This document shows positions 2,716 through 21,138 of a stretch of 64,000 bases of DNA, piece after piece. A program made the translations under genes and the position numbers. The stretch covers positions 1-64,000 of the forward strand of contig JAILIC010000093.1 in the NCBI GenBank assembly GCA_024695475.1, in the 5' to 3' direction. The stretch is from Treponema sp. Lineage in GTDB: Bacteria; Spirochaetota; Spirochaetia; Treponematales; Treponemataceae. Positions within the stretch are counted from its first letter, which is position 1, and every line of letters starts with the position of its first letter. Under the pieces are notes generated by a model. It ran no database searches and was not told where the DNA came from. It saw only the letters and a program-made list of their open reading frames with translations.

Positions 2716-4836
2716 ATGGCAAGAAAGGAACTAGACAGGTTTGACACAACTGCCAAACGAGGCATACAAATTCTTACAAAACTAGTTGTCCGTATTGGCG
2801 GCTCTATCATTTTAGGCGTAGCTATAGCAACAGCAATATCAATCGTAACTTTTAACCGAGGTATGAAAAACTACATCAATGCAAGCTTTGATTTTATCGA
2901 ATCAGGATTCAAAGAAACACTGTATGATTGGCAAATCACAGCTGAATCCGATGCAGCACTGATAGCAGGCTGGCATGACCTCAAACTTGCATTATCAGAA
3001 TCTGATTCTGATTTGCTACAAAAAGCAGTACATGACGTAAATGAAAAGCTTGATGTCGACTTCATCGCCATAATTGCTCCAGATATGAAATCATTTTCTG
3101 GGGGAGCCCTTAACATTGATGCAAACGCTTCATTTGCTAATTCTTCTGTCACAAAAATAGCATTGCAAGGTGATCAGACTTCAAGTATCGAAGAAATCGG
3201 CAGCATAACATATGCAATCGTTGCCGCTAATCCAATCTATATAGATGACGAGCTCACTGGCTGTGTCGTTACCGGGTATGATCTTACAAAAGGCGCATTA
3301 ACAAACATGATTCAGGGCTCTTATGATGTAGAGTGTACCCTATTTAAAGCTAACACACGAATTTCGACAACACTTAAGGGTGAAAATGGATCTTCCCTTG
3401 TAGGAACAAAGCTTGACAATCAAAAGATAGTAGATCAGGTACTCAAAAACGGATACCCATACAAAGGATACAACATAATAGCAGGCTCAGACTATTCATC
3501 TGTCTACTTTCCTCTTTTTGCAAGTGATTCTACGACGGTTACTGGTATGGCATTTATTGCTAAACCACTTGCAGTCATAAATCAAACCTATGTAAAAGTT
3601 CTTAAAACTGTTGTTCCTACCGTAATCCTGCTTGTTGTAATTCTGATAACGTGGAACTTTTTCTTTATCAGATGGCTCATGTGGCGTATCTACAATGTTA
3701 CAAACTTCCTCAAAGAGATGGAAACAGGAGATGCAGACCTTACAAAACGATGTAAGCTCTTTATCAGAGACGAAATCGGTGACTTGATTATTCACTTTGA
3801 CCTTTTCCTTGATAAGCTGCAGGAAATTATTACCGATGTCAAACAAACAAAAGTAAATCTTACGGAGAACGGTCAATCTCTCACCGACGGCACCAATCAT
3901 ACAACTGCAGCAATTGATCAGATCATTACCAACATTGATAATATCCACAGTCAAATTTTGACACAAACGGACAGCGTCCAACAGACAGCTGGAGCCGTTA
4001 ATGAAATTACAGACAATATCACCACACTCAATGGTCTTATCGAAGGTCAAGCCTCTGGTGTAACACAAGCTTCTGCAGCTGTTGAAGAAATGATTGGTAA
4101 CATTTCTTCAGTAAATACCTCCGTGGACAAGATGGCAGCATCCTTCACTGTGTTATCAGAAAATGCACAAACTGGTTTTAACAAGCAGCAAGATGTAAAT
4201 GACCGTATCAAACAAATAGAAGAACAGTCACAAATGCTACAGGAAGCAAATCTTGCCATTTCAAACATAGCTGAGCAAACAAACTTACTGGCTATGAATG
4301 CCGCTATCGAAGCAGCCCACGCAGGCGAAGCTGGTAAAGGTTTTAGTGTTGTTGCAGATGAAATCCGTAAACTTTCAGAAACTTCATCATCACAATCTCG
4401 CACGATCGGTGAGCAACTTAACAAAATCAAAGACTCCATTTCGCAAGTAGTAGCTGCTTCTACAGAATCTAGCAAGGCATTTTCTGACGTATCAAACAAA
4501 ATCCGCGATACCGATCAATTGGTTATCCAGATCAAGTCAGCCATGGAAGAGCAAAATGCTGGTTCTAAACAAATTAGTGATGCTTTGCAAAGCATGAACA
4601 ACAGTACCTCTGAAGTACGTACTGCTTCTCATGAAATGGCAAATAAAAACAAAAAGATTATGGATGAGATGAACTCTCTGCAGACCGTAACTAAAAACAT
4701 GCAGCAAAGCATGGATGCAATGGAACAGGGAGCTCAAAAAATCAATGCCACAGGAACACAGCTTGGAGAAATTTCAACGAGTGTTCAAACGGCAATCGAC
4801 AAGATCGGCAAACAAATCGATTTGTTCAAAGTGTAA
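2716..4836 (+). CDS. Methyl-accepting chemotaxis protein (receptor 2)
   Basis: A 706-residue paralogue of the upstream receptor with the same layout: transmembrane helix near 21-44, periplasmic sensor, second helix near 293-320, HAMP, and a signalling hairpin with [20 protein letters not shown] near 519-540. From the segment [19 protein letters not shown] to the C-terminus the two proteins are nearly the same, while the sensors differ. CAGGGGAG upstream supports the ATG at 2716. It probably forms mixed arrays with receptor 1. The ligand is unknown. Confidence 0.93.
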
Positions 4837-4868
4837 GGTCTCCATAAGTACCTTTTATGGAATAGAGG

Positions 4869-4912
4869 AGCTGTCCTGGAAGTTATTACAAACTTCCAGG
4901 GCAGCTTTTTTT
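4869..4912 (+). terminator. Rho-independent terminator after receptor 2
   Basis: A hairpin with arms at about 4869-4883 and 4892-4905 (core CTGGAAGT / ACTTCCAG) is followed by a run of eight T. Confidence 0.88.
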
Positions 4913-7123: not shown

Positions 7124-7642
7124 ATGAAGAAAAACCGTCCGAAGAAATACGAGGAAAGCCTTAAAAACTGCATTTTACTTGCCCGAATAGAATTTTTCAC
7201 AATATCTGCAGACCCAGATGATGAATATCAGTGCCAGCTTGCAGAAAAAATCTTTCAGACACAGAGAAAAATAGAAAAAAAACAGAGGGATAATGGGCTT
7301 TTTGGTGGACGCTACGGGGTAAAATGGTATCAAGAAATCTTTGCAAGGCTTGCGGTCAAATTAGGTATCTCAAAAATGTGCCCCATTTACCGCCTTCCTG
7401 GCTTTTATACTTTTGACAATGCAAATCCCTGCCACGTCTACCAAAAATGGTGCACCGCTTTTGACGGAGTTCTTACCCAAAACGACATAGAGTTAATCGT
7501 TTCTGCTGCCATAAAAAACGACGACAACTTTTATGAATACGGCGTAAAAGCCTGGGAAAACATGCAGGAACAAAAACGCTGGGACCTTCCCGGCGAGCTT
7601 ATTACCATCTGGCGATATTGGAAAGAAAAGCTGAAAAAATAA
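7124..7642 (+). CDS. Hypothetical protein, 172 residues
   Basis: I do not recognise this family. The protein is soluble, rich in Lys, Trp and aromatic residues, with Cys at scattered positions and no signal peptide or membrane helix. It begins 23 bases after the kinase stop without a clear Shine-Dalgarno sequence, and the stop codon lies directly against repeat copy A, which should end the operon. Codon use is that of a real gene throughout and no long competing frame overlaps it. Confidence 0.65.
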   Translation: MKKNRPKKYEESLKNCILLARIEFFTISADPDDEYQCQLAEKIFQTQRKIEKKQRDNGLFGGRYGVKWYQEIFARLAVKLGISKMCPIYRLPGFYTFDNANPCHVYQKWCTAFDGVLTQNDIELIVSAAIKNDDNFYEYGVKAWENMQEQKRWDLPGELITIWRYWKEKLKK

Positions 7643-7819: not shown

Positions 7820-8851
7820 ATGCGAAAGCTAACAGAAACAAAAAACATTTTTAAAGTACTGGGTATTGAACATTCAGAAAATTATCACAACAATATGCTT
7901 GCATGGCTTTTTGATGCAAACGGGGGGCATCATGCAGGCTCTGTTTATTTTAGAAATATAGTGAGCAGATTCAGCAAGGAAATGTACGACCTTGTTGCTA
8001 TGAAATGGGAATCGTTTACTGTATACAGGGAATTTCCTGTAGAAAATGATGAGAAAAAAGGCTTTATCGACATTTTCTGCATTTCTGAAGAAAAAAAATG
8101 CATAATCTGCTTTGAAAATAAGATTGGCAGTTCCGAACATTCAAACCAGTTGCAGCGCTATGCAGATTTCATTGAAAAAGAGTATTGCGAAAAAGGCTAT
8201 AAGGCACTCTTTGTGTATCTGACTCCTAATGGTGAAACACCTTCAGATAATCGCTGGAAAAAAATGAATTACCGCGATTTGTATGACATCACATGCACTG
8301 CAAGGGGAAATATTGTTGATGACAAAATAAGAGGTATTGCAGAAGATTATCGGGATATTCTTCTTGGGACTTTCGCTACTGCTCGTGATTTTAAGGATTG
8401 CATCACACGAGCAAATGAGTGCGTTGTTTGCAAAGACTTTCCTAACCTTGAATGTGTCAAAGTCACAGCAATGAATGCTCTTTACAAGGATGCTTCGCTC
8501 ACTTGTTTTGCCCCTGCTGACACTGCAGGCGGATATACCGGTACAAATGATTTGTGCTACATCTGTATCAAAATGGAAAAGGCTCAGTATGAAAAAGGCA
8601 CGCTTGCCTGTGTCCTGACTTTTACGAATCATCCTAAAAATCTTGAAGAAGGCTCTGCATTCAGAAAAACGTTCAGCCCGGCCAATCTTGGTTTCCGCTG
8701 GTATGATGCAATCGAAATTGAAGAAAAGCTGCTGAATGACGGCGAGCTTTTAAAAGATTTCTTTATGAGTGAAAACGGCACTGCGCGTTTTGCAACGGTG
8801 GTAAAGAGCCTGCTTTCTAAGATGAAAGCAGAAATTAAGGGAAAAGATTAG
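7820..8851 (+). CDS. PD-(D/E)XK nuclease superfamily protein
   Basis: A 343-residue protein with a nuclease fold in the N-terminal third. The catalytic pattern is visible as Asp84 in GFIDIF and the Glu99-x-Lys101 pair in CFENKI, followed by a QLQRYADFI helix. This matches the PDDEXK_4 group often found in mobile or defence-related contexts. The C-terminal 200 residues are not recognised. A GGGGG ribosome-binding site precedes the ATG and repeat copy A lies directly upstream. The next gene encodes an ATPase, so the two might act together. Substrate unknown. Confidence 0.75.
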   Translation: MRKLTETKNIFKVLGIEHSENYHNNMLAWLFDANGGHHAGSVYFRNIVSRFSKEMYDLVAMKWESFTVYREFPVENDEKKGFIDIFCISEEKKCIICFENKIGSSEHSNQLQRYADFIEKEYCEKGYKALFVYLTPNGETPSDNRWKKMNYRDLYDITCTARGNIVDDKIRGIAEDYRDILLGTFATARDFKDCITRANECVVCKDFPNLECVKVTAMNALYKDASLTCFAPADTAGGYTGTNDLCYICIKMEKAQYEKGTLACVLTFTNHPKNLEEGSAFRKTFSPANLGFRWYDAIEIEEKLLNDGELLKDFFMSENGTARFATVVKSLLSKMKAEIKGKD

Positions 8852-8925: not shown

Positions 8926-8938
8926 AAAGGAGATGCAT

Positions 8939-10339
8939 ATGGCAATAGGGGAAGTTTTCTTTGGAAGAAAAGAAAATATCAAAGCAATTTCAAGATTTTT
9001 CAATTCAGATAATAATGATGCAGCCCTAATTTACGGTCGTCGTCGGGTTGGCAAAACAGAACTGATTAAGCATTGCCTGAAAGAAACAAAAACAACTTCC
9101 ATTTATTATGAATGTAAAGAAACCTCTGAGCTGAATAATGTCAAATCCTTTTGTGAAATCATTTCAGAAACTTTTGGTCTGCCGCCTTTAGCCTTTGATA
9201 CCTTTGAATCAACACTTGCTTTTCTCTATAAGCAAGCTGCAAAAAAAGAATTAATCCTTGTGATTGATGAATATCCTTATATCAGGAAAGTTGTAGAGGG
9301 ATTAGACAGCATTATTCAGTCTTTTATCGACAATAACAAGTCTACTTCCAGATTAAAGCTGATTTTATGTGGCTCTTACGTAGAAACCATGAAGTCTTTG
9401 CTCTCGGAAGAAAATCCGCTTTTTGGTCGTTTTGATTTAGTTATGAATCTTAAAGCTATGGATTATTATGAATCAGCTCTCTTCTATAAAGATTTCAGTG
9501 ATGAAGATAAGGTCCGCTTATATTCTGTTTTTGGCGGAATCCCTTATTACAACAGGCGCATAGATTCATCAAAGACAGTTAAACAGAATATAATTGATTT
9601 GATTGCCAGTCCCGGCAGCCGTTTTGAAAATGAAGTTCAGATGCACCTGAAATCTGAAATTTCCAAAATGCAGAATGCGTATGAGGTTTTTGAAGCTCTG
9701 GCAAAAGGATTTGTTCGATTTAAAGATATTCTCTCTCAATCACAAGTCTCAAGTTCACCAACGCTTGCAGATGTTCTTGATAAATTAATAAATATGGATA
9801 TCGTTGTAAAAGAATCTCCAATTAATGATGAAAATAACAAGAAAAAAGCCGGCTATTATATTTCAGACCAGCTGACTTTATTTTATTTCAAATACATTTA
9901 CAGAAATCTTTCAAGACTTGCAGTGATGGAGTCTGAAGCTTTCTATGATAAATTTATTGAACCCGATTTTGAAGAACATTATGTCCCACAGGCTTTCGAA
10001 CAGATTTGCCGGCAATTTTTAATCCGTAAAAATCGCTCAGGAGAATTACCTGATTCTTTTGAAAAGATTGGAAAGTACTGGTATGACGATCCAGTAAATC
10101 ATAAAAACGGCGAATTTGATGTAGTCACCCAAAACGATAATTCATATATTTTCTACGAAGCAAAATTCCGTGAAGGTAAATTAGACAAAAATCTCATTTG
10201 GAACGAAATCCAGCAGGTAAATAGCACAGGTTTAGTTTGCAGCAAATACGGATTTTTCTCTAAATCTGGTTATAAAGAGATTGACGAGTCCCATAAGCAG
10301 CAGTTGATTCTTTATAAGCTGGAAGATTTATATAATTAA
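8939..10339 (+). CDS. P-loop ATPase with C-terminal DUF234 (PD-DExK-like) domain
   Basis: A 466-residue member of the archaeal-type ATPase/DUF234 family. Walker A is at residues about 32-42 (YGRRRVGKTEL), Walker B at 106-112 (LVIDEY), and a sensor-like LCGSY near 142-146. A winged-helix segment follows, then a C-terminal domain carrying EFDVV and FYEAKF, which looks like a degenerate or active PD-(D/E)XK site. AAGGAG has good spacing to the ATG at 8939 but overlaps the in-frame ATG at 8933, so I choose 8939. Families of this type are common in Bacteroides, Treponema and archaea; the function is unknown. Confidence 0.85.
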   Translation: MAIGEVFFGRKENIKAISRFFNSDNNDAALIYGRRRVGKTELIKHCLKETKTTSIYYECKETSELNNVKSFCEIISETFGLPPLAFDTFESTLAFLYKQAAKKELILVIDEYPYIRKVVEGLDSIIQSFIDNNKSTSRLKLILCGSYVETMKSLLSEENPLFGRFDLVMNLKAMDYYESALFYKDFSDEDKVRLYSVFGGIPYYNRRIDSSKTVKQNIIDLIASPGSRFENEVQMHLKSEISKMQNAYEVFEALAKGFVRFKDILSQSQVSSSPTLADVLDKLINMDIVVKESPINDENNKKKAGYYISDQLTLFYFKYIYRNLSRLAVMESEAFYDKFIEPDFEEHYVPQAFEQICRQFLIRKNRSGELPDSFEKIGKYWYDDPVNHKNGEFDVVTQNDNSYIFYEAKFREGKLDKNLIWNEIQQVNSTGLVCSKYGFFSKSGYKEIDESHKQQLILYKLEDLYN

Positions 10340-11789: not shown

Positions 11790-11935
11790 ACTCCCAATAA
11801 AATTAGGAGTTAACTCCCGTATTTCCTAAGCGTTTCCTCCCAACACAGAATAAAAATCCCGGTGTAAAATTATTTTTGTTAGAAAAAATGATTTTATGAA
11901 GCGTAATTTATTTATATTACGTTTGGGGGAAAGGA
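11790..11935 (+). repeat. Dispersed intergenic element, copy C
   Basis: Third copy. It has the CTCCC...GGAGTTAACTCC start (palindrome at 11806-11817), the core at 11836-11870 with four differences from copies A and B, and the CGTAAT/ATTACG inverted repeat. The position that holds GGAGG and a start codon in copy B reads GGGGGAAAGG here without a start codon. Instead a further 112-base leader follows before the peptide gene at 12048. Confidence 0.8.
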
Positions 11936-12047: not shown

Positions 12048-12182
12048 ATGGCATACGAAAAACCACAGATTCTTGCACAGAACAACGCTTCTGGCTCTTA
12101 TGCAGCTGGATGCCCTGCTAAGGATCAAGGTCATAACACAGTAGGTTCTACAGGTTGTGTACCTTGTGAACGTACAGAATAG
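12048..12182 (+). CDS. Cys-containing RiPP precursor peptide (44 residues)
   Basis: A small gene with a strong GAGGAG ribosome-binding site. The peptide has a leader-like N-terminus (MAYEKPQILAQNN) and a core with SGSYAAGCP and three cysteines at positions 22, 37 and 40, the last pair as CVPC. It lies directly upstream of a radical SAM/SPASM protein with an N-terminal PqqD-like recognition domain, the usual arrangement for ribosomally made, radically modified peptides. From memory the layout resembles the FibroRumin-type Cys peptides noted in gut fibre degraders. I cannot verify this. The final product is unknown. Confidence 0.78.
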   Translation: MAYEKPQILAQNNASGSYAAGCPAKDQGHNTVGSTGCVPCERTE

Positions 12183-12249
12183 TTACAATTCTTGTGCAAT
12201 CATGATTATGTCTCAGTCATGTAAAAATCAATGGGGCATAATTGACAGA

Positions 12250-12284
12250 GCTATTCGGGCGATTCTGTCCGAATAGCCTTTTTT
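12250..12284 (+). terminator. Attenuator/terminator between peptide and maturase
   Basis: A 9-bp perfect stem, GCTATTCGG (12250-12258) and CCGAATAGC (12269-12277), is followed by six T. With no separate promoter visible for the maturase, partial read-through would give much more peptide than enzyme, as is typical for RiPP operons. Confidence 0.82.
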
Positions 12285-12295
12285 GGAACTGTTTA

Positions 12296-12364
12296 TGATA
12301 ATCAATGTTCCAAATGAATATGAAGATAAAAAATTTAAAAAGATTGTTGAAGAAAATTATTGAT
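12296..12364 (+). CDS. Possible 22-residue coupling peptide before the maturase
   Basis: A short frame starting ATG at 12296 encodes MIINVPNEYEDKKFKKIVEENY and ends with TGA at 12362-12364, close to the maturase start. It may couple translation into the maturase, or be the remnant of a longer gene. It is highly charged and unlike the Cys peptide, so it is not an obvious second precursor. Confidence 0.35.
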
Positions 12365-12377
12365 AGGAATACAGTGT

Positions 12378-13847
12378 ATGCTTTACAGACAGAAAAAAGA
12401 TACTTACATAAGAAATTATGATGGGCTCGGCTATATAACTTCAACAGGAATTTTTAATGACCGTGTTGTAAATAAATCTGGAGCAGTTTTCCTTTCCGCC
12501 TTGTCGCGTAAAGGACAGACACTCGATGAGTTAGTTGATAAAATCACGCCCTCTTTTGTTGATGTTAGTCGCGAAACTATCAAAGCTGACGCAGAAGAAT
12601 TTTACAATGCTCTTGTTACCGACGGTTTTATCATAAAAGACGAAACAGAAGCGGAGCTTGACAAAAAAGATATAGGCTTTACTTATAATGCTATTCATCC
12701 TAAGACAATTCGTGATGATTTTACCCCGACAATTCAGCGAGCGGACACCGATACTCAGGAATTTTTGGAAAAACATTTTGCAGGAAAACCTCATCTAAAC
12801 AGTTTTCAAATTGAACTTACCAGTAAATGTAATGAGCGATGTGTACATTGTTATATTCCTCATAAATTCAAACTTTATAACATCACAGATGAGCTTTATT
12901 ATTCCACGCTGGAGCAGCTTTCTAAAATGGGCGTGCTTAATGTCACACTTTCTGGCGGTGAATGTATGTGTCATCCAAAGTTCAAAGAATATTTACGTGC
13001 TGCAAAAAAATACGACTTTTATGTGACCATTCTTTCAAACCTGACACTCTTAGATGATGAAATCATCGAAATTATGAAAGAGGGAAATGTTTCTAGCGTT
13101 CAGACTTCACTTTATTCTATGGTTCCAGAACATCATGACGCAATCACGCAGTTACAGGGAAGTTTTTATAAAACACGCGATGCAATTTTAAAATTGATAG
13201 AAAATGATTTGCCACTTCATGTTTCGTGCCCTACGATGAAAGGCAACAAGGATGATTACGGCGATGTTCTAAGATGGTGCCATGAGCATAAAATCCGTGC
13301 GCAGACCGACTACATCATGATGGCAGAATACAACCATGAGACAGAAAATCTTGCGAATCGCCTTTCAGTAGAAGAAGCAGGAAAAGTTATTTCTAGTATC
13401 ATGGCTGACGATGTTGACTATCAGAATGCGATTCTTGCTCCCGATTTTGTCGCACGATGCAATGAAAATCAGTTTAATCCAGAGCGAAGATTGTGTGGTG
13501 TTGGTATTTCTTCATGCTGTATGGTTTCAAACGGTAATGTCTATCCATGTGCTGGCTGGCAGGAAATGGTCTTAGGAAACTTGAATGAAACATCTTTGCA
13601 AGAAATTTGGGATAAGTCAGAAAAAATCAAGTGGCTTCGCGGATTAAAAATGAAAGATTTAGGGGGCGGCGAATGTTGCAAATGCGACAAGGCTGCCTTC
13701 TGTGCGCCCTGCATGGTTCGTAATGCCAACGAAAGTCCGACAGGAAATCCTCTTGAAATAAATCGACACTTCTGTGCGGTAGCTGCAAAAAACAAGCAGA
13801 TTGTGCTTGACTGGCGTAATGCAAAGTTAAAGGAGTTGGGCAGATAG
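12378..13847 (+). CDS. Radical SAM/SPASM peptide maturase with PqqD-like RRE domain
   Basis: A 489-residue enzyme. Residues about 5-90 resemble a PqqD/RRE peptide-binding domain. The radical SAM core has Cys151, Cys155 and Cys158 in SKCNERCVHCYIP, then the LSGGECM motif. The C-terminal SPASM region has CCMVSNGNVYPCAGW and a CCKCDKAAFCAPC cluster for auxiliary iron-sulfur centres. Such enzymes install thioether or carbon-carbon links in the Cys peptide encoded upstream. An in-frame TTG at 12360 could extend it by six residues. The ATG at 12378 is preferred, with AGGA upstream, but the call is not firm. Confidence 0.9.
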   Translation: MLYRQKKDTYIRNYDGLGYITSTGIFNDRVVNKSGAVFLSALSRKGQTLDELVDKITPSFVDVSRETIKADAEEFYNALVTDGFIIKDETEAELDKKDIGFTYNAIHPKTIRDDFTPTIQRADTDTQEFLEKHFAGKPHLNSFQIELTSKCNERCVHCYIPHKFKLYNITDELYYSTLEQLSKMGVLNVTLSGGECMCHPKFKEYLRAAKKYDFYVTILSNLTLLDDEIIEIMKEGNVSSVQTSLYSMVPEHHDAITQLQGSFYKTRDAILKLIENDLPLHVSCPTMKGNKDDYGDVLRWCHEHKIRAQTDYIMMAEYNHETENLANRLSVEEAGKVISSIMADDVDYQNAILAPDFVARCNENQFNPERRLCGVGISSCCMVSNGNVYPCAGWQEMVLGNLNETSLQEIWDKSEKIKWLRGLKMKDLGGGECCKCDKAAFCAPCMVRNANESPTGNPLEINRHFCAVAAKNKQIVLDWRNAKLKELGR

Positions 13848-13851
13848 ATAT

Positions 13852-14733
13852 ATGACTGACTATCATGTTCATATCGGACAGTATGAAAAAGCATATTACT
13901 ATGCTGATCGCGTGTTTTCAGTGCTAAAGAAAAACGGCGTGGATGAAGTGTATGTTTCTAGCACGACAAGCTGTATCTTTTGCAAAGAAAGCACCGATGC
14001 AAGATTTTCTGAACATGATAAAAAAAATGCTCCATCTGCAAGTACACTTTACGCAGCAATAAGCGATGAGATAAAAAACGCACAGCTTTGCGCAAAAGAA
14101 ATCGGTATAAAAGCCCATGCCCTTTATTGGGTAGTACCAGATTTTCACTTTGCAAATTGCAGTCTTACCTTAAAAAAAGCAATGAAAGATGTACCGTATG
14201 ATGGATTTAAAATACATCCATTTGTACAGAGATGGAATTTAGAAGATGAACACATGGCAAGGCTTGCAGAAGAGATTTTTGACTATGCGGAAACAAACAA
14301 AAAGCGGATTGTGATTCATACAGGGGATGACGATTTTTGTAGTCCGAAACTGTTTGAAAAATATATTGCAAGTCATACAGATGTAATTGTTCAACTTGCG
14401 CACTGTCGTCCTTTGAGACAAACGGTTTTTATGATGGAACAGTATGCAAATGTTTTTTGCGATTCTTCTATGACAAATAGAGAAACAATAGCAGAAATAG
14501 AAAAAAATGGTTTTAGAAATCGTGTTTTATACGGAAGCGATTTTCCTATAACACATTGGAGAGAGTATAAACCTGATTATGATCCGACAGAAAAGGAACT
14601 GTCTGATTTTTGTTTATATTATGCAAGAAGCACAGCGTGCCTTGACAAAACGTATGCTGAATTTTTTTCCCAGACTATCCTGCGGCAAGGCAGGTTAACC
14701 GCGATTAAGCGGAGTCTGGGCTTTTTGAGGTGA
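13852..14733 (+). CDS. Amidohydrolase/TatD-like metal-dependent hydrolase
   Basis: A 293-residue TIM-barrel hydrolase with the metal-binding pattern intact: His5-x-His7 in DYHVHIG, FKIHPF, VIHTGDD, LAHCRPL and YGSDFP. It starts five bases after the maturase stop and so is part of the same operon. It may trim or hydrolyse the modified peptide, but no known RiPP role can be cited. The last about 18 residues are encoded inside a strong inverted-repeat structure (14669-14720), which suggests that the original C-terminus has been extended into a terminator. Confidence 0.8.
   Translation: MTDYHVHIGQYEKAYYYADRVFSVLKKNGVDEVYVSSTTSCIFCKESTDARFSEHDKKNAPSASTLYAAISDEIKNAQLCAKEIGIKAHALYWVVPDFHFANCSLTLKKAMKDVPYDGFKIHPFVQRWNLEDEHMARLAEEIFDYAETNKKRIVIHTGDDDFCSPKLFEKYIASHTDVIVQLAHCRPLRQTVFMMEQYANVFCDSSMTNRETIAEIEKNGFRNRVLYGSDFPITHWREYKPDYDPTEKELSDFCLYYARSTACLDKTYAEFFSQTILRQGRLTAIKRSLGFLR
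14669..14726 (+). terminator. Three-way-junction terminator overlapping the hydrolase 3' end
   Basis: The outer stem CCCAGACT (14669-14676) / AGTCTGGG (14713-14720) is followed by CTTTTT. It encloses two smaller hairpins, CCTGC/GCAGG and CCGC/GCGG. The whole structure lies within the coding frame of the hydrolase and directly before the next gene. Confidence 0.75.
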
Positions 14734-14736
14734 AAA

Positions 14737-15090
14737 ATGAAAAAGCAATTTCTTATTATTGTGGTCTTGATTATGTGTATATCAGCTGTTACAAGCAGTG
14801 AGAACAAAAAGAAAACTTTGTATAAGAGATTTACCGAATATTTTGATAAAAAAGTAGAAAAAGCTGAAAAAGAACTTCCCCACATAATTGAAAAAGGTAT
14901 GGAAGCCTTTACCGACAACCTGGAAGATTTTGACAAAGACATTCACGCAGAGCCGGAAAAACAGAGTAAATTCGCAAAGCTTTTTAACTATATTGCAGAT
15001 ATTGATATTGCTGATACCTGTGCAAATGATTATGCACATATAAATCCTGAAGATGTCGAAAGAGTCGGAGCTTACACAGACGCCCGGTAA
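14737..15090 (+). CDS. Small exported protein, 117 residues
   Basis: The N-terminus (MKKQFLIIVVLIMCISAVTSS) is a clear signal peptide or single membrane anchor. The rest is helical and highly charged, with Lys/Glu repeats. No family is recognised. A GAGG ribosome-binding site sits seven bases before the ATG. Because of its position after the RiPP-type genes an immunity role is conceivable, but nothing in the sequence shows it. Confidence 0.65.
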   Translation: MKKQFLIIVVLIMCISAVTSSENKKKTLYKRFTEYFDKKVEKAEKELPHIIEKGMEAFTDNLEDFDKDIHAEPEKQSKFAKLFNYIADIDIADTCANDYAHINPEDVERVGAYTDAR

Positions 15091-15756: not shown

Positions 15757-15943
15757 AGTTTTTAATAAATCTATAAGAACATTCACGATACAATAGTAAC
15801 ATAGTTTATGTTAGTATATAAGCAATATGGTACAGTTCAATAAAAAATGCTGATTTTTCACAATCATACGCTTATACCATTTTGCTGATGGTCTATTTTC
15901 ATACCCTTTTCTGTCTTACTATACTTTCTTAAAAGGCCATATT

Positions 15944-16141
15944 GAGAATCAATATATACACGATTGAAGCTCAAGATATACACGATTGAGTCTCAATATG
16001 TAAACGATTGAAGCTCAAGATATACACGATTGAGTCTCAATATGTAAACGATCGAAGCTCAAGATATACACGATTGAGTCTCAATATATAAACGATCGAA
16101 GCTCAAGATGTACGCAATTGAAACTCAATATGTACGCAAAA
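15944..16141. repeat. Nine-unit 22-bp tandem array of dyad sites upstream of metH
   Basis: Nine contiguous 22-bp units with consensus GARNCTCAAKATRTAMACGATY alternate between two subtypes (GAAGCTCAAG and GAGTCTCAAT), giving a 44-bp super-period. Each junction forms TTGANNNTCAA, in three cases the perfect ATTGAGTCTCAAT. With 22-bp spacing, close to two helical turns, all sites face the same side of the DNA. The array ends about 36 bases before the probable metH -35 box. There are no unique spacers, so it is not a CRISPR. The rest of 15757-16208 holds nothing else recognisable. Confidence 0.9.
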
Positions 16142-16208: not shown

Positions 16209-18830
16209 ATGCTTTATTCCATGAAAAAAACACTGAGAGAGTTACTTGGAAAGCATATTCTTTTTCTAGATGGAGGCTCTGGTTCCGTCCTTCAAAAACA
16301 GGGACTGCAACCAGGAGAATTTCCTGAAACATGGAATATCCTCCATCCTGATAAAATCATCGACTTACATTATAATTATTACAAAGCAGGTTCCAACATT
16401 GTCTATACAAATACCTTTGGAGCCTACAGCCTTAAGTTTCCCCATACCACACAGGGGAGTGGTGCCCTGCAGGTAGCTACTGCCTCGCATAATCTGGAAG
16501 CAATCGTCAAAGCAGCAGTACGCAATGCCAATGAAGCTCGTCGCCGTATAGAACAAGAACCCATTACTGAAGAACAGCTTGCTTCAGAGCGACAAGCATG
16601 TACTATTCCACAAGGACTTTCCCCTGCCCAAAGGCCTCATTTTGTAGCACTAGATATTGGTCCATGCGGTAAACTTTTAAAACCAATGGGCGACTTGGAT
16701 TTTGAAGACGCGGTCTCCCTTTTTAAGGAAACCATGCGCATTGCCCTCAGCTGTGACGGACTCGATCTTATCGTCATCGAAACCATGAACGACAGCTACG
16801 AAACAAAGGCTGCCGTCATTGCCGCAAAGGAAGTACGCCAGGAATTTGAACAGTATAAAGACATTCCTATTTTTGCAACGACTGTCTACGATGAAAGCGC
16901 AAAATTACTCACTGGTGCCGATCCTGAAACAATGACAGCCATTCTCGAGGGGCTACGCATAGATGCGTTTGGTCTCAACTGTAGTCTCGGCCCTGATCAA
17001 ATGGCACCCATTGTACCTCGTTTAACACAAGCTGCAAGTACTCCCATCATCGTAAAACCAAACGCAGGCTTGCCCCGCAGTGAAAATGGAAAGACCGTCT
17101 ACGACGTCGATGCACCGTCATTTGCAACTTCCATGCAGCATATCGTAGAGGCTGGAGCTTGCATCGTCGGTGGTTGTTGTGGCACTACCCCAGAATACAT
17201 CTGCCGTTTGGTAAACGCAGTACAAGACAGCGTTCCTCTACCCATTACTGCAAAACAGCAAACTGTTGTTTCGTCATATACACATACGGTCTCTATCGGC
17301 GGAGTACATCCTCCTGTATTAATCGGAGAGCGTATCAATCCAACTGGAAAAAAGAAATTTAAAGAAGCTTTGCGTAATAATGATATTCCTTATATCATCC
17401 AGCAAGGACTTGACCAGGAAGCCGCTGGTGCACATGTATTAGATGTCAATGTCGGCCTGCCAGAAATTGATGAAAAAATGATGATGGTTACCGTCATGAC
17501 AGAATTACAGGCAGTCACCGATATTCCTTTACAACTTGATACCGGTACCCCATCAGTTATGGAAGCAGCCCTTCGCCGTTATAATGGTAAGGCACTGGTA
17601 AACTCCGTCAACGGCAAAGAAGAAATCATGCATGCCGTTTTTCCTCTCGTACAAAAGTATGGTGGAGTCGTCATAGCGTTAACTATCGATGAAGACGGTA
17701 TTCCTACTACTGTTGAAGGCCGCATGAAAATCGTTGATAAAATCTATAAGACAGCTGCGGAGTATGGTATCGGTAAACATGATATTGTAGTTGATCCATT
17801 GGCTATGGCAGTCAGTTCTGATGACACAGCGGCTATCGTTACGTTGCAAACCGTAAAAGCAATTCATGATATCGGTGGCTGTACCAGTCTTGGGGTTTCA
17901 AATATTTCTTTTGGTTTACCGGAACGCGAGCTTGTCACTTCAACATTCTTTACCATGGCAATGGAAAATGGTCTCAGTGCGGCTATTATGAATCCTTTAC
18001 AAACAGAAATGCTCAAGGCCTTTTATGGGTACTGTGTACTAAAAGGATATGACAAGCAATGTCTCAACTACATTGCGTTTGCTCAAAAGTATGCAGAACA
18101 AAAAAACGCCCTAGCTGCTGCAGCGGCCGCAGGTACAGCAGCTCAAACACAGACAAGCGGCTCCTCTACAGCAAATGCAACTGACAGTACAACGAGTATT
18201 CCTGCAAACACACTCGTTTACGCTGTCATTCATGGATTAAAGGAACAAGCTGCAAAATATACTGCAGAACTGCTACAGCAGAAAGTAGATCCCCTCATCA
18301 TTATCAATGACCATCTTATTAAGGCCCTTGATATCGTCGGCAAGGGATTTGAAGCTAAAAAACTGTACCTTCCGCAATTATTGATGAGTGCAGAAGCGGC
18401 AAAATCAGCTTTTGCAGTGATTAAAGAGACGCTTGCAAAAGCCGGAAAAACCGGTAAAAGCAAAGGTAAAATTATCATTGCAACAGTCAAAGGGGATATC
18501 CACGACATAGGCAAAAACATTGTCAAAGTCTTGTTGGAAAACTATGATTTCACCGTCATAGACTTGGGAAAAGATGTGCCACCAGAAACGATCGTAGAGC
18601 GTACCATACAAGATAACGTTCCACTGGTTGGTCTCAGTGCCCTTATGACAACAACCGTGCCTAGTATGGAAGAAACAATCAAGCAACTACGTGAAAAAGT
18701 TCCTGGCACAAAAGTATGTGTTGGAGGAGCTGTCATGACAGAAGAATACGCAAAAATGATTGATGCAGACTTTTATGGTAAAGATGCCATGGCTACGGTA
18801 AAATACGCACAAAGTGTTTTTGGAGCATAA
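16209..18830 (+). CDS. metH: Cobalamin-dependent methionine synthase lacking the reactivation domain
   Basis: The enzyme moves a methyl group from methyltetrahydrofolate through cobalamin to homocysteine. The 873 residues comprise the homocysteine domain (1-345; zinc ligands in GLNCS near 258 and GGCCGTT near 320), the pterin-binding domain (about 370-620), an Ala/Thr/Ser-rich linker (about 640-680), the B12 cap, and the B12-binding domain with GDIHDIGKN near 763-771. E. coli MetH has about 1,227 residues, so the SAM/flavodoxin reactivation domain is absent, as in some anaerobes. An internal start at 16221 (MKKTLRELLG) fits the predicted promoter better. It is followed by a B12-type radical SAM gene. 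Confidence 0.93.
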   Translation: MLYSMKKTLRELLGKHILFLDGGSGSVLQKQGLQPGEFPETWNILHPDKIIDLHYNYYKAGSNIVYTNTFGAYSLKFPHTTQGSGALQVATASHNLEAIVKAAVRNANEARRRIEQEPITEEQLASERQACTIPQGLSPAQRPHFVALDIGPCGKLLKPMGDLDFEDAVSLFKETMRIALSCDGLDLIVIETMNDSYETKAAVIAAKEVRQEFEQYKDIPIFATTVYDESAKLLTGADPETMTAILEGLRIDAFGLNCSLGPDQMAPIVPRLTQAASTPIIVKPNAGLPRSENGKTVYDVDAPSFATSMQHIVEAGACIVGGCCGTTPEYICRLVNAVQDSVPLPITAKQQTVVSSYTHTVSIGGVHPPVLIGERINPTGKKKFKEALRNNDIPYIIQQGLDQEAAGAHVLDVNVGLPEIDEKMMMVTVMTELQAVTDIPLQLDTGTPSVMEAALRRYNGKALVNSVNGKEEIMHAVFPLVQKYGGVVIALTIDEDGIPTTVEGRMKIVDKIYKTAAEYGIGKHDIVVDPLAMAVSSDDTAAIVTLQTVKAIHDIGGCTSLGVSNISFGLPERELVTSTFFTMAMENGLSAAIMNPLQTEMLKAFYGYCVLKGYDKQCLNYIAFAQKYAEQKNALAAAAAAGTAAQTQTSGSSTANATDSTTSIPANTLVYAVIHGLKEQAAKYTAELLQQKVDPLIIINDHLIKALDIVGKGFEAKKLYLPQLLMSAEAAKSAFAVIKETLAKAGKTGKSKGKIIIATVKGDIHDIGKNIVKVLLENYDFTVIDLGKDVPPETIVERTIQDNVPLVGLSALMTTTVPSMEETIKQLREKVPGTKVCVGGAVMTEEYAKMIDADFYGKDAMATVKYAQSVFGA

Positions 18831-18840
18831 CAAACAGTTT

Positions 18841-21138
18841 ATGAATATTGTCATCATACAGCCCCCCTTGGTACAACTTAATACTCCTTATCCTGCAGGA
18901 GCCTATCTTGCCGCCTTTTTTAGAACAACAAATACGGCACAGGCAAAAGACAGTACCACGTGGCTTGATTTAAGTACAGAACTTTTTCATCATCTATTTT
19001 CGCGACAAGGTTTGACACTCCTCTTTGCACAAAGTAAAAAAAAGGCATTACACCTTGCAGACGTAGCAGAGCGTCACGGTGACGATGCCACAGCGTATCA
19101 ATTGAGACGATATGTATCAAGTGCCCCATTGTGGATTGATTGGATAGATCGTATCGTCGCCATGGTGTGCCAGTTACCGCAATCAGGACATGAATGGTTA
19201 CACGAGTTTGTACGCTCTGCACATGCTCCTCGTGGCAATCGTATGGAACAGTACCTTACCACGCTCAATCGCGATGTCAGTATTGATGACGGGCGCATTC
19301 TTGCCAGCCTTGCTCTGGCAGATTTGGCAGACTACATAACGGTTGCCTATGATGAACACTTTAGTCTGGTACGATATGCGGAACGGATAGCCACCAGTAC
19401 AGCACGCTATGATGATGTGTTGAAATCTCTTGAAGCTCCAATTCTTACCACTTTTTATGAGACACTACTGACACAACAACTTGATTCCCTTAATCTTCCA
19501 GATGATACACAGTTCCTGATATCTGTGCCTTTTCCAGGTACCTTTAGTGCCGCCATCTATACCGCCCGCTATATAAAACAGCATTATCCTCAAGCGGTCA
19601 CCGCCATCGGTGGTGGGTATGTAAACACCGAGCTTCGCTGTATCACAGAAAAACGACTGTTTGATTATATAGACTTTATCAGCTATGACAGAGGCTATGG
19701 TTGTTTTTTAACACTCTATGATACTGTTGCCAAAAAGAATGTTTTATCAATACATGATATTCTAGACGGAACTGCTTACTATAAAACAAAATACCTGTAT
19801 CACGACACCATCATTCAAGAACTCAACAGTGATGCCATCTATGAAAAAAAAGAAACTGAGCTGACAAAAACACTCATACCAGATTACACGGGTATCGACT
19901 TTGGTCGTAGTCCCCGTATGGCCGATGATACCAATCCTATGCACCGCATCTGGTCTGACGGAGCATGGATCAAAGCCTATCTTGCCTACGGCTGCTACTG
20001 GCATCGCTGTCTTTTTTGCGATACCACGCTTGAATATGTCTATGGTTTTTGCCAGACAAATGTAACCGCGCTCTATAAAGGATTGCAAAAGCAAGCACAA
20101 CAAACTGGAGTGTATGGCATACACTTTGTTGATGAAGCCTGCCCTCCCCTTGCATTGCAAGAATTTGCCCTGGCAAATTGTGCCTATCCACACACTGCTG
20201 ATACCGATAAAACACACAAGCTCACCTATTGGGGCAATATCCGTTTTGAGAAAACCTTTTCCAGAGATTTGGCAGATCTGCTTTCGTATGGCGGTCTTAC
20301 CGGTGTATCAGCTGGAATAGAAATTGCAACTGGTAAAGGGTTAGAGGCCATACATAAAGGTACCGATATAGAAAACATTGTATGTGCCTGCGCGGCTTTC
20401 AAAGAAGCTGGTATTTTAGTACACGGATACATGATATATGGCTTTTGGAATCAAAGTGAACAAGATCTCATTAACTCTATGGAAACCTTACGACAATTAT
20501 TTGCTGCAGGTCTCATAGATTCCGCATTTTTCCATAAGTTTACATTGACCAGACACTCTACGGTATACAAAGAGTGGCAAGAAGGTAAACACCCTGATTT
20601 AAAACCGATACAGCCAGATGCACATCAATTTGCAGAAAATGACATTCATTTTGAAGGTGAACATAAAAGTGAAAAGTACGGATCCGCTCTTTCAACAGCT
20701 GTTGAAAGCTGGATGCATGGTCAATACCTCAACAAAAAGATACAGTCATGGTTTTCATTCAAAATGCCAGCTCCTTCAATAGCTCCAGATTATGTACAAA
20801 AACTCATTGCAATTTATGAACAAAAGCGGGATACTGCATTTTCGTTTATTCCCAGTGCCTCAAGTGAAAAAAACGGAGGTCGCTATGTATGGCTCGGTGG
20901 AGATGTGATAGTAGTATCAGGAGCGGGTACTTCCGGTCAAAAGCAAATATGCTGGCACTATATGCAAGAGTTGCAATATGCAGACATACCAGCAAAAAAA
21001 GCAGAAGAAATAGTATCATGTCTGCATAACATGTCCATAACAGACGGAGTTCCTCTTACTGGAAAAGAAGTAATAGCACATATACCACCAACTGTATTTA
21101 AGGCACTTCGCGGTAAAGGCATCTGTGCCCTATTATAG
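18841..21138 (+). CDS. B12-binding-type radical SAM protein with a CX4CX2C motif
   Basis: A 765-residue enzyme ten bases after metH and surely in its operon. The N-terminal half includes a Rossmann-like cobalamin-binding-type segment (IGGGYVNTELR near 260). The radical SAM motif, AYGCYWHRCLFCD near residues 382-393, has four residues between the first two cysteines instead of the canonical three. I choose the ATG at 18841 (MNIVIIQPPLV) because GGAG lies upstream and the family begins so. The substrate is unknown. Linkage to metH suggests a methyl-transfer or corrinoid-related role, which is inference. Confidence 0.82.
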   Translation: MNIVIIQPPLVQLNTPYPAGAYLAAFFRTTNTAQAKDSTTWLDLSTELFHHLFSRQGLTLLFAQSKKKALHLADVAERHGDDATAYQLRRYVSSAPLWIDWIDRIVAMVCQLPQSGHEWLHEFVRSAHAPRGNRMEQYLTTLNRDVSIDDGRILASLALADLADYITVAYDEHFSLVRYAERIATSTARYDDVLKSLEAPILTTFYETLLTQQLDSLNLPDDTQFLISVPFPGTFSAAIYTARYIKQHYPQAVTAIGGGYVNTELRCITEKRLFDYIDFISYDRGYGCFLTLYDTVAKKNVLSIHDILDGTAYYKTKYLYHDTIIQELNSDAIYEKKETELTKTLIPDYTGIDFGRSPRMADDTNPMHRIWSDGAWIKAYLAYGCYWHRCLFCDTTLEYVYGFCQTNVTALYKGLQKQAQQTGVYGIHFVDEACPPLALQEFALANCAYPHTADTDKTHKLTYWGNIRFEKTFSRDLADLLSYGGLTGVSAGIEIATGKGLEAIHKGTDIENIVCACAAFKEAGILVHGYMIYGFWNQSEQDLINSMETLRQLFAAGLIDSAFFHKFTLTRHSTVYKEWQEGKHPDLKPIQPDAHQFAENDIHFEGEHKSEKYGSALSTAVESWMHGQYLNKKIQSWFSFKMPAPSIAPDYVQKLIAIYEQKRDTAFSFIPSASSEKNGGRYVWLGGDVIVVSGAGTSGQKQICWHYMQELQYADIPAKKAEEIVSCLHNMSITDGVPLTGKEVIAHIPPTVFKALRGKGICALL

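Follow-up and report, generated by a model that had tools for sequence, protein, structure and literature searches.

SkfB is a thioether-forming enzyme, and in the FibroRumin system a radical SAM peptide maturase lies beside a small peptide. The locus described here, in which a short peptide gene is followed by genes for a maturase and an amidohydrolase (Table 1), lies in a window of 64,000 nucleotides (positions 1 to 64,000 of Treponema sp. contig JAILIC010000093.1, assembly GCA_024695475.1). It is built like the systems of SkfB, AlbA, StsB and the SCIFF maturase, which also combine RRE, radical SAM and SPASM domains with a Cys-containing precursor, and like those of PqqE/PqqD and the mycofactocin enzyme MftC, where an RRE-assisted SPASM enzyme works on a short peptide with a leader. 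In such families, as passages of PMC7470986 and PMC9062424 set out, the RRE binds the leader and the SPASM-type radical SAM enzyme carries out the modification. The window maturase nevertheless matched the models of these enzymes weakly, remaining under the curated cut-off of every known thioether maturase model compared (SkfB, 64.5 of 300 bits; AlbA, 64 of 850; StsB, 46.3 of 625). The values for PqqE (80.8 of 381 bits) and for the mycofactocin maturase (66.7 of 265) were also below their cut-offs, and the cores found here, unlike those of these two systems, are hypervariable. All the NCBIfam matches listed for the maturase fell far under their cut-offs, the best one reaching 98 of 500 bits. 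In contrast to sactipeptide and ranthipeptide systems, the precursor is of an unrelated type and the locus has no exporter or protease. A resemblance to FibroRumin-type systems, suggested in the original prediction, did not hold up: TIGR04136 (cut-off 400 bits) gave no match to the window maturase, and its only match in the genome, at 57.8 bits, was to another gene.

The reading we prefer, with a probability of about 0.6, is that these genes form a compact, accessory cassette for a RiPP, in which an RRE-guided radical SAM enzyme acts on a Cys core, most likely by forming thioethers. That it specifies a radical SAM RiPP of some kind is highly likely; granted this, thioether chemistry is rather probable. 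The pairing of peptide and maturase, the domain content, the conservation and the spread are all apparent from the sequence comparisons given below, and such cassettes probably make up an undescribed family of RRE-guided radical SAM RiPPs of the thioether type. Two precursor classes were distinguished and named in this analysis: class A, that of the window, and class B, which goes with a sister clade of maturases and was found on plasmids, in a phage and in a few other settings. On this reading the family would have two modes or more, class A joining one well-conserved type of maturase to many unrelated cores and class B keeping an almost fixed core on mobile elements. Partial prior description is possible. 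As characterised in passages of PMC9062424, cluster 115 combines a precursor that conserves at least three cysteines with a peptidase, a hydrolase and several radical SAM enzymes, a layout much like that of three class A loci (L005, L016 and L017), while cluster 59 comprises a recombinase, a radical SAM enzyme and a peptide, a layout like that of the class B plasmid loci. In the same passages both clusters are characterised by an Asp-Cys motif, which these loci do not conserve; in the alignment of 18 class A peptides, no cysteine is preceded by a conserved Asp. Among searchable papers, no match was found for AAGCP with radical SAM, FibroRumin or the class B core; nor, where tested, did Pfam or NCBIfam hold a model for either precursor class.

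Table 1. Features of the cassette and their coordinates in the window
Feature	Position	Strand	Basis
Palindrome CGTAAT-N8-ATTACG, ~120 bp upstream of the peptide gene	11901–11929	+	just two copies genome-wide
44-aa precursor peptide, class A	12048–12182	+	18 homologs aligned, maturase pairing, codon variation
Terminator-like hairpin (12 pairs and a T run) between peptide and maturase genes	12250–12285	+	consensus scan
Maturase, 489 aa	12378–13847	+	Pfam domains, invariant Cys of homologs, closest solved chain SkfB
RRE/PqqD domain of maturase	~12468–12632	+	Pfam PqqD, 3e-7
Radical SAM domain (CNERCVHC) of maturase	~12810–13277	+	Pfam Radical_SAM, 1e-22
SPASM domain of maturase, full set of cluster cysteines	~13494–13685	+	Pfam SPASM, 6e-8
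Amidohydrolase-superfamily enzyme, 293 aa	13852–14733	+	PF04909/Amidohydro_2 (2e-8), structure match, conserved ligands

The original prediction of a 44-residue Cys peptide with a ribosome-binding site was borne out: GAGGAG lies ~7 nt 5′ of the ATG at 12048, and the peptide contains Cys22, Cys37, Cys40 and the motif SGSYAAGCP. Alignment of 18 class A peptides revealed a conserved leader (residues 1–23, including Cys22-Pro23; MAYTKPQVIAQNASSGSYAAGCP in the family of the window peptide), a hypervariable core, and a C-terminal CxxCE that includes Cys37 and Cys40. Thirteen of the 14 invariant columns fall within residues 3–23 and the remaining one is Cys40; the region between Cys22-Pro and the final CxxC varies in both sequence and length. 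Mean pairwise identity was 0.80 over residues 1–23 versus 0.31 over the remainder, the combination of conserved leader and more variable core that marks RRE-dependent radical SAM RiPPs and to which class B, with its nearly fixed core, is the exception. The codons at invariant residues vary synonymously, with all four Pro codons used at P6 and all four Ala codons at both A10 and A19, which indicates that selection acts on the peptide as a protein. The invariant columns, the synonymous codons and the difference in identity between leader and core together argue that the window peptide is more than a chance ORF. A second copy of the cassette, with a different core, is present in the source genome (3.17 Mb; G000:C158). 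A tandem second precursor-like ORF was seen at L045:3912-4082; its leader is intact (SYATGCP), and its core, as if decayed, is without the usual CxxCE end.

The radical SAM/SPASM protein with a PqqD-like N-terminal domain, proposed from the letters of the sequence, was recognised as such by Pfam, the PqqD and Radical_SAM matches exceeding their gathering scores and the CxxxCxxC motif being present. Homology places its start at the ATG at 12378 rather than the TTG at 12360. Ten cysteines are invariant among 20 maturase homologs: C150, C154 and C157, followed by C372, C390, C432, C435, C441, C444 and C465. In the scheme we propose, the N-terminal RRE would bind the KPQxxAQN..GSYAAG leader of the 44-aa peptide, and the radical SAM/SPASM part, with three predicted [4Fe-4S] clusters, would modify the Cys-containing core. 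Most likely, at least one thioether link would be made from Cys22, Cys37 and/or Cys40, each such link lowering the mass by 2 Da, and the hypervariable stretch would be closed into a loop; the amidohydrolase might then hydrolyse the modified peptide or a product thereof. Judged from sequence, the adjoining enzyme very probably crosslinks the three-cysteine peptide. The hairpin between the two genes may set a high peptide-to-enzyme ratio; comparable hairpins occur in some, though not all, of the relatives, with both classes represented.

The solved chain closest to the maturase is SkfB (6efn; E 5e-15), but this likeness mostly reflects the shared radical SAM domain, and the chemistry of the maturase is therefore not fixed by it. 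The enzyme might instead introduce a non-thioether modification (a C–C crosslink, an epimerisation or another change), with the cysteines acting as a disulfide, as metal ligands or as hydrogen donors. Cysteines, prolines and an aromatic residue located a few positions ahead of the first Cys are nearly all that the core classes share, and passages of PMC9062424 attest to many chemistries among SPASM enzymes. Cys is, however, the most constant residue type across these otherwise unrelated cores, with at least two cysteines recurring in nearly all core classes despite their differing sequences (the L053 peptide has just one). A non-thioether RiPP thus appears rather unlikely, and thioether formation is retained as the preferred reading.

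Further enzymes were seen beside some maturases. In four loci (L015:4680-5999, L016:4630-5916, L017:3675-4952 and L047:4772-6091), a protein of 425–439 aa is encoded between peptide and maturase, in which an RRE/PqqD domain like that of the maturase is fused to a domain with four invariant cysteines. The latter showed a faint likeness to Peptidase_U32 in one member (E 0.09), and free-standing homologs of it occur in many Treponema genomes. This RRE-fused protein, whose predicted structure was poor (pLDDT 47), may be a further tailoring enzyme guided by the leader. Some class A loci encode an additional radical SAM protein, devoid of an RRE, which lies between precursor and maturase at L005:1314-2723, L016:3201-4256 and L017:4953-6011, and directly after the maturase in L050 (346 aa).

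To define the pairing of peptide and maturase, a first set of loci was gathered with the maturase alone, the peptide not being used in the search. It comprised 19 loci, 18 of them with a readable maturase start, and a short ORF with the same leader was found upstream of the maturase in 17 of these 18 close homologs, all from Treponema MAGs. The original prediction was to be given up if homologous maturases never had the small gene beside them; clearly, they consistently do. The exception, L021, is a solitary maturase 88% identical to that of the window, with no peptide and with amidohydrolase similarity lacking an intact ORF. A strict leader motif was matched by 34 of 5010 ORFs in 436 kb of related loci, and all 34 preceded a maturase encoded on their own strand, at distances of 61–3206 bp; since these loci had been picked by maturase or peptide, what is informative here is that the motif does not occur in the rest of their DNA. 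A second scan, overlapping the first set, compared a maturase alignment with 393 Spirochaetota genomes. The maturase was present in 18 genomes, and a KP-type Cys peptide accompanied it at 20 of 20 loci with readable upstream DNA, three of which (G389, G327 and the second G319 locus) were recognised only by a looser motif judged by eye. The maturase frame is broken in one of the 20 (G276), and G304, where the contig ends, is outside the count. Class A was found in 19 of 200 genomes of the genus (~1 in 10), sometimes twice per genome, as in the source genome.

Beyond Spirochaetota, the spread was sampled in plasmid, phage and viral collections. Candidate class A peptides in viral contigs were rejected, the pattern matches having fallen in chance reading frames. 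A tblastn search of plasmids returned seven, from E. coli, Salmonella and Photobacterium, all typed as conjugative and all with full-length maturases 42–43% identical to that of the window. Just upstream of these maturases lies an unannotated ORF of 38 aa (MSYSKPTVLAKSSTYMAQCRPNSKPSGRPCNPPGPSGR), whose core is nearly invariant (CRPNSKPSGRPCNPP). The E. coli and Photobacterium versions of this class B peptide gene differ only synonymously (17 substitutions, none of them non-synonymous), and the extended DNA match between the plasmids of these two hosts (78% over 1681 bp) is confined to the two-gene cassette. The class B core also occurs in two Treponema-family genomes (G200 and G367), in a contig that has phage genes for holin, endolysin and terminase (L111), where the cassette has a GC content of 38.6% versus 63–68% in its flanks, and next to tandem integrases (L112). 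In a maturase tree, class A and class B were each set apart on one side of a branch (support of 99/100 for either class), and core class tracked clade. Within class B, the two Treponema-family members did not form a pair but joined the copies linked to a phage or to integrases; how the long branches L103 and L112 pair is uncertain. Complete E. coli genomes lacked the class B plasmid segment, and the collection of phage records yielded neither the maturase nor a class B peptide. A 94-kb viral contig holds a class B precursor (L115:351-467; MIYTKPKILAQSTVQMAECRPNSRPSGRPCNPPKPGGV) and no maturase anywhere in the record; this precursor could be an orphan, a decoy or a fragment edge. In E. coli and Salmonella plasmids, resolvase-gene fragments flank the class B cassette on both sides (L039, ~7280-7593; L041, ~4576-4889), which may bear on how it moves.

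The nearly invariant class B core is reminiscent of PQQ-type systems, and no transporter or protease was found beside any locus, as might be expected if the maturase used the peptide as the source of a small molecule, either a cofactor or a signal, in the manner of the PQQ and mycofactocin pathways. The hypervariable class A cores are not what a cofactor precursor would show, however, occurrence is scattered, at 19 of 200 genomes in the genus, and no client enzyme co-occurs, all of which makes this explanation improbable. That the small ORF is not a gene, or that the peptide is conserved next to the maturase without being modified, would agree with its shortness and its lack of annotation in public plasmid records but is very hard to reconcile with purely synonymous divergence, invariant residues with varying codons and a motif found exclusively next to maturases. 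Returning to the thioether-type cassette, a single maturase family might serve two evolutionary modes: in gut Treponema it would take endlessly varied cores on a fixed leader (class A), and as an AT-rich two-gene cargo of conjugative plasmids, phages and integrase islands in several bacterial groups it would make one nearly invariant crosslinked peptide (class B). The strict conservation of that peptide would imply a conserved target, for instance in host signalling, in defence or where one element competes with another. This idea is a tentative one, and somewhat doubtful. Should the preferred reading be correct, rumen and gut Treponema would hold an undescribed RiPP family in which one type of maturase takes very different cores, and such an enzyme would be useful in studies of substrate tolerance. 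The version on plasmids and in the phage provides a small peptide that lends itself to testing; its sequence hardly differs among E. coli, Salmonella, Photobacterium and Treponema relatives, which again points to a conserved target.

The metal-dependent hydrolase noted beside the maturase was confirmed as a member of the amidohydrolase superfamily, conserved in class A and with its metal ligands intact. Its structure, predicted from an alignment of related loci together with proteins from genome stretches (a later structure prediction used related loci only), had a pLDDT of 90; the final ~40 residues are poorly modelled and not common to relatives. The fold is a TIM barrel, and the best structure matches, 3cjp (Z 17.0, rmsd 3.0 over 209 residues), 2-pyrone-4,6-dicarboxylate hydrolases and isoaspartyl dipeptidases, all belong to this superfamily. 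Its HxH, H, H and D metal ligands are represented by H5, present in at least 90% of sequences, and by the invariant H7, H122, H156, H184 and D230. Among loci found by the maturase, the enzyme was present at 16 of class A; it was missing from L014, L017, L052, L053 and every class B locus. Its divergence far outpaces that of the maturase (mean identity 0.42 versus 0.79), and a co-diversification with the core was rejected (Mantel r 0.02, p 0.42; for core versus maturase, r 0.09, p 0.22). A core-specific role is therefore unsupported, and its absence from several loci, together with its failure to vary with the core, makes its link to the product weak. The maturase might conceivably act on the amidohydrolase itself, as anaerobic sulfatase maturases do on sulfatases, the peptide being a bystander or regulator; the two enzymes do adjoin at most class A loci, but this is most improbable given that peptide and maturase remain together where the amidohydrolase is missing (class B and others) and that an RRE fits a peptide leader.

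Regarding the other neighbours, the exported protein at 14737, suggested as a further part of the cassette, did not prove to be one, being found elsewhere only in two closely related Treponema loci (L015/L048 and L047). No exporter or leader protease was found beside any locus compared. The palindrome upstream of the peptide gene is a possible operator or promoter element; its other copy in the genome (10507-10535) is upstream of gene 10545, and it was not found in the other loci compared. No Rfam element was detected near the window locus, and defence-system models gave just a weak likeness of the shared radical SAM domain to viperins. Small opposite-strand genes lie just upstream of the precursor in other class A loci and fall into two families (one in L006, L009-L013, L018, L020 and L046; the other in L007, L008 and L019). 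They are helix-turn-helix repressor-like in the two members scanned and absent from the window. Upstream of the cassette, PD-(D/E)XK and ATPase_2/DUF234 genes (7820-8851 and 8933-10339) match the PADLOC candidate defence families PDC-S26 and PDC-S27, relatives of which are also near the cassette in L015 and L047. Downstream, a 44-base tandem repeat (15941-16134; 4.4 copies, 92% matches) separates gene 15112 from a methionine synthase-like gene (16209-18830) whose short MetH-like product aligns with no more than the first 855 of the 1182 positions in the model. The latter gene overlaps another (18814-21138), for a radical SAM protein that weakly resembles B12-dependent methylase models.
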